IMG/VR virus record: IMGVR_UViG_3300025806_000268
Span: 1-21,437 of that record
DNA length: 21,437 bases
Strand: one strand, 5' to 3'
Origin: a virus
Shown piece by piece: positions 1 to 3,448 of this stretch. The notes under the pieces are model-generated. The model saw only the letters and a list, made by a program, of their open reading frames with translations, made no database searches and was not told the origin of the DNA. Position 1 is the first letter of the stretch, and each line of letters opens with the position of its first letter. Both the position numbers and the translations under genes were made by a program.

Positions 1-1768
1 TGTTCTGGGTGGCGATGTTGAACTTGGAATACTCGGTCGCCAGAACACCGAGACTGATGCCCAGTCGGTCCGACGTGCGACGAACAAAGTCCAGTTCCTG
101 CGCCACCCGGCTCGTGTCGCTGTCGAAGGCGACGTTTAGACGGGCCTGCGCGGCTTCTAGCTGTTGCGTGGCGTCCACTGTGCCCTGAAGGACCCGGATA
201 GCCCCATATAGACCGCCATAGGCCGCCACGAGGGACAGGACCTCGCCCCGGATACGTTGGAGCAGGGAAAGCGAGCGGCGGGTGTCACCGTAGAACTGGC
301 GGTAGGCGTCAGCGAAGCGGCCCGTAGCCGTGGCCGCCCGTGTGTTCGCGTTTGCCAGACGATCTGAGTCGGAGGCCAGACGGCGCGATCCTGTCGCGGC
401 TGCGCTGGTCGCCGAGGCCAACCGCTGGACCGAGGCTGACGTCTGGGACGTGGCTGAGTCGGCACGACGCATGGCTGCGATCTGCTGGTCGATGGTTGCG
501 AGGAACCTAGCCTGCGCTGTGCGCAGCCCCTCATAGTTCCGCTCCGAGCCTTTTAAGGTCTGGGCCATCTGCTGAAGCGCGGATCGTTGGGCTTCTAGCT
601 GGGTTTTCAGCCGCGTGGATTCAGACGCGGCCCGTGTGAACTCAGCCACCATCTCTTTGGTGGGCTTGGTCGTCTGGGCCAGCGCCTTACCAAGCGCAGT
701 CGCTTTGGCCCGTGCCTGATCGTATGCTTGGCTGGTTTCCAGCATCACCCGCTTTTGGTCGCGGCTTGCGGACACCAGTGCGAGGAAGCCCCGCTTGGTC
801 AGTTGCTGAAGTTCTCCCGTCGCTTTGGCCGAGGACGCAGACAGGCGGTCGAGACCAGAGCGGGTCTGTTCCAACTCACCTTCAAGGCGGTTCATCGACC
901 CCGTAGATCGGTTCAGATCGGACGACAGCCGCGACTGGCGCTGGGACACAGCAGCGGTCGCGGCTTTGATCCGCTCGTAGCTTTGCGACATCGACTTCAG
1001 GATGCTCTCTTGCTTAGAGAGGTTCTGCCCAGCCTTGGACGCCTGCGCCCCGAACAGGGTCATCGCAGACCCGGCGGCGTTCAGGTTCGATCCTATGCTC
1101 CCGAACTCAGTCCGCAGCTTGGTAAGTCGGGTTCCCGTCTCTGCCATCCGGCGCTCTGCGTTCTGGAAGCGGTCGATCAGCGCCTTGGTAGGGCTGCTGG
1201 TGCCAGCGATCTCCGCCGACAGGTTGTCAAAGTTCGTCGCGGCCTTGGACGCGGCAGTTCCTGCCTTGGCGATCAGTGCGGGAAGTTGCTGTTGCCGACG
1301 TTGCAGCTTCTCCTGCGCGGAGGCTGCCTGCTCGTAGGCGCGTGTCAGTTCCTTCTGGTCGACCTTGGCCTTGGCGACTACAGCCTTCTGCCGCTCCTGC
1401 ACAGAGAGGTTTCGTTCCAGCTTCCCTGTGTAGGTCTCCAGCGTTGCCTTGGACTGCTTCAACTGCTTGTCGAGACGGGCGGACTCATTGGAGGCTCCGC
1501 TGAACGACTGTTCGAGGCGAGCCAGTGCCTCGTTCGACTTGCCCAGTTCGGACGCCAGCTTCTGTCCGGCGGTGAGGCCCTTCAGAGCCGCGTCCAGCTT
1601 GCCAATGGCCCCACCAAGCTGGGTGAGGGTAGTCTGGGTCTTGTCGGCTCGGCTATCGAGGTTCTTCTGGGCTTCGACGAAAGTGTTCAAAGCCTTCGTA
1701 ATGGAGTCCACAACGGACGCGGCCTGATCTTTGGCCTTGATTACAAGATCGACATCACGACGGGCCAT
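1..1768 (-). CDS. Tail tape measure protein (lambda gpH-like), N-terminal part
   Basis: Sets tail length and is later ejected with the DNA. The reading frame is open from an ATG at 1768 to the left edge (589 complete codons), so the C-terminus lies outside the window. The start MARRDVDLVIKAKDQ has an AGAGG Shine-Dalgarno 8 bases upstream and lies 13 bases after the stop of the tail chaperone frameshift product. Residues about 15-490 are almost entirely Ala, Gln, Ser, Lys, Arg and Leu with heptad-like spacing, as expected for a long coiled coil. From about residue 510 comes a hydrophobic helix (VLSLVAAYGGLYGAIRVL), then a segment with a DRLGISLGVLATEYSKF motif, matching the conserved N-terminal domain of tape measure proteins. 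Lambda H is 853 residues, so several hundred more codons are expected. Position right after G/GT supports the call. Confidence 0.93.
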   Translation of the reverse strand, partial: MARRDVDLVIKAKDQAASVVDSITKALNTFVEAQKNLDSRADKTQTTLTQLGGAIGKLDAALKGLTAGQKLASELGKSNEALARLEQSFSGASNESARLDKQLKQSKATLETYTGKLERNLSVQERQKAVVAKAKVDQKELTRAYEQAASAQEKLQRRQQQLPALIAKAGTAASKAATNFDNLSAEIAGTSSPTKALIDRFQNAERRMAETGTRLTKLRTEFGSIGSNLNAAGSAMTLFGAQASKAGQNLSKQESILKSMSQSYERIKAATAAVSQRQSRLSSDLNRSTGSMNRLEGELEQTRSGLDRLSASSAKATGELQQLTKRGFLALVSASRDQKRVMLETSQAYDQARAKATALGKALAQTTKPTKEMVAEFTRAASESTRLKTQLEAQRSALQQMAQTLKGSERNYEGLRTAQARFLATIDQQIAAMRRADSATSQTSASVQRLASATSAAATGSRRLASDSDRLANANTRAATATGRFADAYRQFYGDTRRSLSLLQRIRGEVLSLVAAYGGLYGAIRVLQGTVDATQQLEAAQARLNVAFDSDTSRVAQELDFVRRTSDRLGISLGVLATEYSKFNIATQN

Positions 1769-1781
1769 TCAGTTCGCCTCT

Positions 1782-2587
1782 CTACATTGCTTCTGGGGGT
1801 GCTTGTGGAACCCCTTTCGGCATGACTGCATCCGCCAACGACTTCTTCTTCTGCGGACCTTTCCGCTGCTCTGGTGTCAGTGCCGGGGGCTCCCCGAAGT
1901 AGTTGGTCGACGGCTTGTTTTCGACATTAAGCGATTTAACCAGTTTTGAAAACTGTTTACGCGATTCTTTAACCATCAGGCCCGCGACGGCCTGCCGGAT
2001 CAGTTCGGCTTCTGTTATCATCCGGGTGCTTTCACGCTCTTGGATGAAGTTCGTTTCGTCCATTAGGAAGCCGATGGGGTAGTGGTAGGCTCCGGAGTGC
2101 CCGTGGGAGATGCACAGATTTACTGAACGGCGGATGCCCCAATACCAGTCGGCGAAGGTAATTGTATGTCCGTCAGAGCCCCAGATACCTCCGCCATCAT
2201 TGTCGTCAGGGACCCTATCAGCTTTTTTATCTCGCCCTCCTGAGAGAACGTGAGGCCGAAGATCGCTTCGACGACTTCAATCTGCTTATGGAACGGGATG
2301 CGCTTTAGGATGGCGATAGTATCCGGGTCGTAGTTCTCTGCGGCCAGAGCCATCGCTGCCGCGACCATGTCGGGGAACTCGGTCGCTACTGAGCCTAGCA
2401 AGGCTCTGATGTCCGTCACTTCCAGAGAGTCCATCTTCTGGACCTTGCCGAAAGCCATAGCGCACTCCGGGCCGTAGACGTTGACGATGGTCATAAGGTC
2501 CGAGAGGCTGATGCCTCGGACGGAGATTTCACCGACATCGCCGACCTTGATCGTGCGCTCCGGGATCGTGAGGTTTTTAATAGCCAT
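1782..2587 (-). CDS. Tail assembly chaperone frameshift product (gpGT-like)
   Basis: Predicted fusion made when ribosomes slip back one base at A AAA AAG (2228-2222): 122 residues of the G-like protein joined to 146 residues read in the -1 frame, about 268 in total (lambda GpGT is of similar size). The -1 frame is open from the slip site to the TAG at 1782. After the shift it reads ADRVPDDNDGGGIW, then an aromatic and His-rich part (FADWYWGIRR, HSGAYHYPIGF), then a charged helical tail ending in PPEAM. An ATG at 2063 could give a separate 93-codon protein, but it has no visible Shine-Dalgarno, and the frame upstream of it encodes a plausible protein. In lambda the T part recruits tape measure and tube subunits. 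The slip is inferred from sequence, not shown. Confidence 0.8.
2120..2587 (-). CDS. Tail assembly chaperone (gpG-like), unshifted form
   Basis: 155-residue protein immediately upstream of the tape measure gene, the fixed place of gpG in siphoviruses. It is thought to coat the tape measure protein and keep it soluble until the tube polymerises. The sequence begins MAIKNLTIPERTIKVGDVGE, is largely helical and acidic, and has no membrane segment. An AAGGA Shine-Dalgarno stands 7 bases before the ATG. Codons 120-122 are ATA AAA AAG, a classic -1 slip site; unshifted ribosomes add a further 33 residues ending in GIGASAVQ. Size matches lambda G (140 residues). It follows the tail tube gene by 66 bases that hold a strong hairpin. 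Confidence 0.85.
   Translation of the reverse strand: MAIKNLTIPERTIKVGDVGEISVRGISLSDLMTIVNVYGPECAMAFGKVQKMDSLEVTDIRALLGSVATEFPDMVAAAMALAAENYDPDTIAILKRIPFHKQIEVVEAIFGLTFSQEGEIKKLIGSLTTMMAEVSGALTDIQLPSPTGIGASAVQ
2222..2228 (-). promoter_or_regulatory. Programmed -1 ribosomal frameshift site A AAA AAG
   Basis: On the minus strand the in-frame codons ATA AAA AAG give the X XXY YYZ heptamer A AAA AAG, one of the most slippery -1 sites known in bacteria. It lies 33 codons before the stop of the G-like frame. The -1 frame entered here stays open for 146 codons. Location between tail tube and tape measure is where almost all long-tailed phages carry such a shift. I did not identify a stimulatory pseudoknot downstream. 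Confidence 0.85.
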
Positions 2588-2621: not shown

Positions 2622-2645
2622 CGGCCCGGGGTTAGCCCCGGGCCG
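2622..2645 (-). other. GC-rich intergenic hairpin after tail tube gene
   Basis: A perfect 10-bp inverted repeat (CGGCCCGGGG and its complement) around a 4-base loop starts 8 bases after the tail tube stop codon. No U-tract follows; instead a TC-rich run leads to the next gene. It may be a partial terminator, an RNase barrier protecting the abundant tube mRNA, or a factor-dependent stop. The structure is directly visible, the role is not. Confidence 0.6.
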
Positions 2646-2653
2646 TCGTGGTC

Positions 2654-3448
2654 TTAGCTGTAGACTGGATCGCCGTCGCGGTAAATCGCTTCGACGTTGG
2701 TCAGCTTCAGCACTTCGAGCGACATCGGGATTTGCTGCCACTCGTCGCCTTTCAGGGCGTAGTCGCCGTTCGGGGATACCTTCACATAAGGGAAGTAGAA
2801 GGTCGTGTCTGCGCCCTTCGGGTTCACCGTGCGATAGATCATCGCGCCTTCGACGGGCTCGGAGCCTGAGATCACGCGGGTCCGAGTGTTGGCCGCCAGA
2901 TCGTAGGTGACAACGATGTCTTCGCCGCCTGCGAGAGACCCGCCAGACAGGAGAGTAATCATACCGTTGTCATAGTCCAACTCATAGTCGGTGCCGAGGA
3001 CAAGTGTCGCGCCACCGTCAATCTCGACCGTGTTGGTGCCACCACTGTCCAGACCGAAGACGCCAGTCGGGTTGTTGACCGTCGCGTCGATCATGTAAGC
3101 ACGGTTCAACTCGATGCCCACCAACGTCGCGGCGACGTTAGCCAACGAGCCTGAAGTGGTCTCTACCGACGCGGTGCCGAAGAAGAACAGCGCAACGTTT
3201 TCAGGGTCAATGTTATCCGTGGTCAGTGACCCGGTCCGGTTCACCTCAAGTGCAACGCTGTCATCCTTTTCACGGATGCCTGCGTCGGAGTTGTAGTGAT
3301 CGAGTGTTTCGGATTCGATGGTCAGCGATACCTCGGGCGTGTTGCCGATGTAGCGAAAGCCACCGGGGGTGGTTCCCGTCGAGAAACGAGCGAACCAAAT
3401 TTCGCCTCGTCCGAGGGTATAGTTGTTGGAGTGGGTGCTAGGTGCCAT
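2654..3448 (-). CDS. Major tail tube protein (lambda gpV-like)
   Basis: 264-residue subunit whose stacked rings form the tail tube through which DNA passes. Residues 10-65 carry the conserved tube motif: YTLGRGEIWFARF, then FRYIGNTPEVSLTIE and a HYNSDAGIREKDDSVALE-like loop. The C-terminal part (about 195-262) returns to the tube fold with FYFPYVKVSPNGDYALKGDE. Residues about 125-185 (TNTVEIDGGATLVLGTDYEL region) look like a small inserted beta domain, which may project from the tube surface like the extra domain of lambda V (246 residues). Start ATG has a strong AAAGGA site about 8 bases upstream, and the leader resembles that of the capsid gene. Followed by a GC hairpin. Confidence 0.9.
   Translation of the reverse strand: MAPSTHSNNYTLGRGEIWFARFSTGTTPGGFRYIGNTPEVSLTIESETLDHYNSDAGIREKDDSVALEVNRTGSLTTDNIDPENVALFFFGTASVETTSGSLANVAATLVGIELNRAYMIDATVNNPTGVFGLDSGGTNTVEIDGGATLVLGTDYELDYDNGMITLLSGGSLAGGEDIVVTYDLAANTRTRVISGSEPVEGAMIYRTVNPKGADTTFYFPYVKVSPNGDYALKGDEWQQIPMSLEVLKLTNVEAIYRDGDPVYS

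Follow-up and report, generated by a model that had tools for sequence, protein, structure and literature searches.

The G and T genes of this metagenomic siphophage are very probably joined by a programmed −1 frameshift at A AAA AAG, giving a G-T fusion. A chaperone fusion of this kind was the core of the original prediction and is supported here by homology, phase and conservation, from which we infer the slippage and its rate. The window, that is the whole stretch of DNA analysed, is a virus record of 21,437 bases.

The overlapping frames and their slippery site

The G gene (2120-2587, minus strand) encodes a tail-assembly chaperone of 155 aa, the product of standard translation, and carries AAGGA (2599-2595) 7 nt 5' of its ATG. 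The G codons ATA AAA AAG occupy 2230-2222 of the minus strand, with the heptamer proper, A AAA AAG, at 2228-2222 in the phase of G and 33 codons ahead of the G stop (2122-2120), in agreement with the position and phase originally assigned to it. The −1 frame has no stop between 2276 and 1785 and closes at a TAG (1784-1782). The T domain (1782-2222, minus strand), which would be reached via the slip, comprises the predicted 146 codons plus this stop, and the virtual G-T fusion has 268 residues.

Because the −1 frame is open only from 2276, a productive −1 slip is restricted to the 157 nt between 2276 and 2120, within which A AAA AAG is the sole in-phase X XXY YYZ heptamer. Among 7,009 positions in the window's 22 reading frames, in-phase A AAA AAG is found once, and there are five in-phase heptamers of the (A or G)-then-A type, which puts the chance expectation for the overlap at about 0.04. 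The six A residues of the site also constitute the longest such run on the window's minus strand. Taken alone, the open −1 frame carries little weight, since long spurious ORFs abound in the DNA of the window; the comparative sequence data settle the question left by it.

Protein identity, gene context and known systems

Judged by profile matches and gene order, G and T are a tail-assembly chaperone pair. G matches Pfam PF23789 (Pre_tape_measure) over residues 1-137 with 99.8 bits, against a cut-off of 27, and also PHROG 5260 (tail protein). PHROG 11703 spans residues 1-221 of the fusion in one stretch (7.6e-36) and T alone is matched by PHROG 9221. The label of both PHROG 11703 and PHROG 9221, 'tail length tape measure protein', is considered a misnomer because of the gene order: the pair sits between the major tail protein (2654-3448, minus strand; PHROG 807, 8.5e-64) and the tape measure protein gene itself (2-1768, minus strand; PHROG 2335, 2.3e-51), which is cut by the window end, and the upstream neighbours also include a tail terminator and a neck or tail completion protein. 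The tape-measure misnomer has been carried through the databases on G or T pieces, in several phage records. Searches of Rfam and NCBIfam gave no match. In a profile search of the Protein Data Bank G matched TAL effectors, with no single stretch passing, and this match was judged an artefact of their tandem repeats.

By its G-T protein the nearest named relative is Synechococcus virus S-ESS1, whose record has no gene annotated across G and T. The other named relatives with examined records belong to the Casjensviridae too, and on the evidence of this protein the window, a 21-kb fragment, may belong to that family. Three records filed as Staphylococcus phages (OR850348.1, PV593182.1 and GU169904.1) have a Chi-like G-T matching that of Salmonella or Proteus phages, which suggests, on sequence similarity, contamination or wrong host labels. 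The stretch that separates the stop codon of the major tail protein from the start of G contains a perfect GC hairpin of 10 bp, CGGCCCGGGG-CTAA-CCCCGGGCCG (2622-2645, minus strand; z = -4.7), which is not followed by a run of T. A similar hairpin is found between the same genes in one relative (L004), and in the Seifer and Season12 records a terminator is annotated there. This hairpin may lower transcription or protect mRNA between an abundant tail protein and a scarce chaperone.

Frameshifting is annotated, or the two frames are joined, in the records of SP-088, AH2, Seifer, Saba, Stilesk and RcWhiteOak. SP-088, Seifer and Saba share A AAA AAG at the homologous codon with the window; compared with them, the T of the window is distinguished by the greater length of its C-terminal tail and by a Trp-rich stretch that follows the slip. 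For the gp55/gp56 pair of Burkholderia phage AH2 (Casjensviridae) a −1 frameshift at AAAAAAG has already been predicted, and the same heptamer has been listed for several other phages (PMC3483164). AH2 resembles the window in its homologous G and T, its gene order and its heptamer at the homologous codon, but its G and T are only ~25% and ~40% identical to those of the window, its T is shorter and the bases downstream of the site differ. Given these annotated relatives and the heptamer predicted in AH2, the window represents a further case of an already known G-T frameshift, and is a well-supported but ordinary example of it.

The precedent for frameshifting in tail chaperones is the G/G-T pair of phage lambda (reviewed in PMC5009743). 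As in lambda, the two frames overlap, T lies in the −1 frame behind an in-phase heptamer and is, by sequence, without a start. A further property of the lambda type is that G-T amounts to a few per cent of G. No profile match to lambda gpG was found in Pfam or PHROGs for the proteins of the window. That the heptamer differs from G GGA AAG of lambda, a point made in the original prediction, holds true; it is not an unusual site, however, A AAA AAG being the usual form in the family. In a reporter study of phage tail assembly chaperone genes that resemble HK97, values of 6 and 7% were measured (PMC3711429).

Conservation of the site and alternative explanations

Relatives with both G and T were located by profile search (n = 59, consisting of 54 plus a set of five, L084-L088), and T occupies the −1 frame in each of the 59. 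Once near-duplicates had been taken out, 45 non-redundant sequences were left, counting the window, and in 41 of them the homologous codon carries a canonical heptamer (28 A AAA AAG, 6 A AAA AAA, 1 A AAA AAC and 6 G GGA AAN), although these sequences share ancestry and the counts are not independent events. The other four depart from strict X XXY YYZ and have, at the same place as the canonical heptamer, G GAA AAG (L023, L028 and L084) or G CGA AAG (L050). The comparison of relatives that had been proposed as a check therefore came out in favour of the frameshift, the heptamer persisting at the homologous codon amid drift in the bases around it, and T staying always at −1. Relatives lacking the heptamer, which the original prediction regarded as one case that would count against it, are confined to these four among the non-redundant sequences, and they retain a related site. 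The G GAA AAG carriers are relatives of alphaproteobacterial phages plus two contigs (L023:1240-1246; L028:1139-1145, approximate; L084 and L085 at the homologous codon). G CGA AAG occurs in an S-ESS1-like contig (L050:1495-1501), all of whose relatives have A AAA AAG, and T is still in the −1 frame in it.

The A6 form of the heptamer imposes rare codons on these genes, namely GTA (9%), ATA (2%), CTA (5%), CCA (4%) and GCA (14%), expressed as the share per amino acid counted upstream in the same genes. Given this codon usage, the wobble bases seen at the 35 A6 sites have a joint probability of ~10^-55, a figure that overstates the case because the sequences are treated as independent and only sites of the A6 form are considered. 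The A6 heptamer form is absent from the other 14 Lys-Lys pairs of these genes.

A short T that begins at a downstream ATG is what gene finders and several records annotate, as would be expected if G and T were separate genes and T had a start of its own, either ATG 2063 or a non-standard codon. That ATG (2061-2063, minus strand) is the first ATG, GTG or TTG of the −1 frame after the slip and the T start that a gene finder would be likely to choose. No Shine-Dalgarno-like sequence is seen before it (upstream bases ..CCCATCGGCTTCCTA ATG), as had been pointed out previously, while G has its AAGGA, and use of ATG 2063 is considered unlikely. Initiation there would also remove T residues 1-53, and with them seven of the nine T columns invariant in 13 relatives (R31, V34, G41, H42, A45, Y48 and P49), so that a separately started T would be truncated, its best-conserved residues preceding the ATG. 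By these sequence features T is without a usable initiation site of its own. A separate T would, in addition, leave the conserved in-phase heptamer unexplained, and we regard it as very improbable.

The fusion could alternatively be encoded by a shifted mRNA, if RNA polymerase slipped on the six-A run. Such slippage is known for poly-A runs, and this one is the longest on its strand; six A residues are, however, fewer than the cited length (n > 7), and in relatives the same codon has GGGAAA-N or G GAA AAG instead of A6, in phase. Exchanges between AAAAAA-N and GGGAAA-N at a single codon never disturb the phase, which fits tandem tRNA re-pairing and not polymerase slippage on an A run, and transcriptional slippage is accordingly given even less credence than a separate T. 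The least probable explanation is a sequencing or assembly error, in which an indel in the A run would make one ordinary G-T gene look like two. Homopolymers are in general error-prone, but the same two-frame layout is present in every independent phage record and contig examined, and this shared arrangement effectively refutes an error. Programmed −1 frameshifting at A AAA AAG is thus strongly preferred.

Flanking elements and proposed mechanism

Two elements flanking the heptamer, an upstream AGGAGG and a downstream stem, are new details that the original prediction did not include. The Shine-Dalgarno-like AGGAGG (2236-2241, minus strand) lies 7 nt 5' of the heptamer and perhaps stimulates slippage, to judge from its sequence and position. 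Compared with synonymous shuffles, Shine-Dalgarno-like strength is slightly higher across the family (p = 0.018), but the window by itself shows no such excess (p = 0.37).

The putative stimulatory stem (2174-2217, minus strand) pairs UAGGGUCCC (2217-2209) with GGGGCUCUG (2182-2174) around a loop of 26 nt and starts 4 nt 3' of the heptamer (4-5 nt in the nearest clade); the stem search in the window gave p = 0.005. In the 13 sequences of this clade 92% of stem cells are paired, and two pairs are altered on both sides, one from A-U to G-C and the other from G-C to A-U. The clade covariation score was reached by only 1 of 500 shuffles and every slid version was worse. These observations constitute moderate evidence of covariation, from related sequences in which both stem arms are coding in two frames. 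Exceptions are L004, which breaks two inner pairs, and L048 and L050, which lack some outer pairs. The local fold z-score of the window at the stem is only -1.21, and free-energy z-scores 3' of the heptamer are not notably low family-wide. A family-wide stem test gave a Fisher value of 1e-5, yet p = 0.003 was obtained as well at one of the three control positions upstream, and for this reason only the clade-level stem is relied on here. The exact stem of the clade was looked for out-of-sample in L084-L088 and was not found there. L084 and L085 have a different and stronger stem, of a perfect 10-11 bp, 3-4 nt 3' of G GAA AAG. An H-type pseudoknot between the loop GGCGGAGGUA and downstream UACCUUCGCC has 10 bp in the window and dominates a longer fold; it is left uncounted and unclaimed because the downstream bases vary widely within the clade. 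From its position and covariation, the stem is predicted to stimulate the frameshift.

The arrangement of A AAA AAG with AGGAGG on its 5' side and a stem on its 3' side resembles the signal of E. coli dnaX, which consists of A AAA AAG, an upstream Shine-Dalgarno-like element and a downstream hairpin (PMC3711429). The gene itself is unrelated, its shift leads to a shorter product at ~50%, whereas that of the window would lead to a longer one, and the 7 nt between the upstream element and the heptamer are a further point of difference.

In the proposed mechanism the majority of ribosomes would produce the 155-aa G, and a minority would stall at A AAA AAG, where both tRNAs would re-pair one base back to give the 268-aa G-T. 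The stem 4-5 nt downstream would probably assist the slip, and AGGAGG perhaps does so via pairing with 16S rRNA. By analogy with lambda (PMC5009743), many copies of G and a few of G-T would attach to the tape measure protein, and the tail-tube subunit would be brought in by T so that the tube polymerises to set length, with neither G nor G-T expected in the virion. For the proteins of the window these binding roles are suggested by gene order and homology.

A more speculative proposal, which we put forward as possible but on balance doubtful, is that strengths of the elements trade off against each other so as to hold the G:G-T ratio. The S-ESS1-like clade would then use a three-part signal (an AGGAGG-like element, A AAA AAG and, 4-5 nt away, a covarying stem), and in other members of the family the weaker G GAA AAG would sometimes be accompanied by a very strong stem (L084, L085). 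The 45 distinct sites, with their swaps among AAAAAA-N, GGGAAA-N and G GAA AAG, offer a natural series on the control of G:G-T by heptamer and stem. As regards the virus itself, an unannotated metagenomic siphophage very probably carries a classic tail-chaperone frameshift, and its true products would include a fusion of 268 aa, which a gene finder would report in two pieces or cut short.
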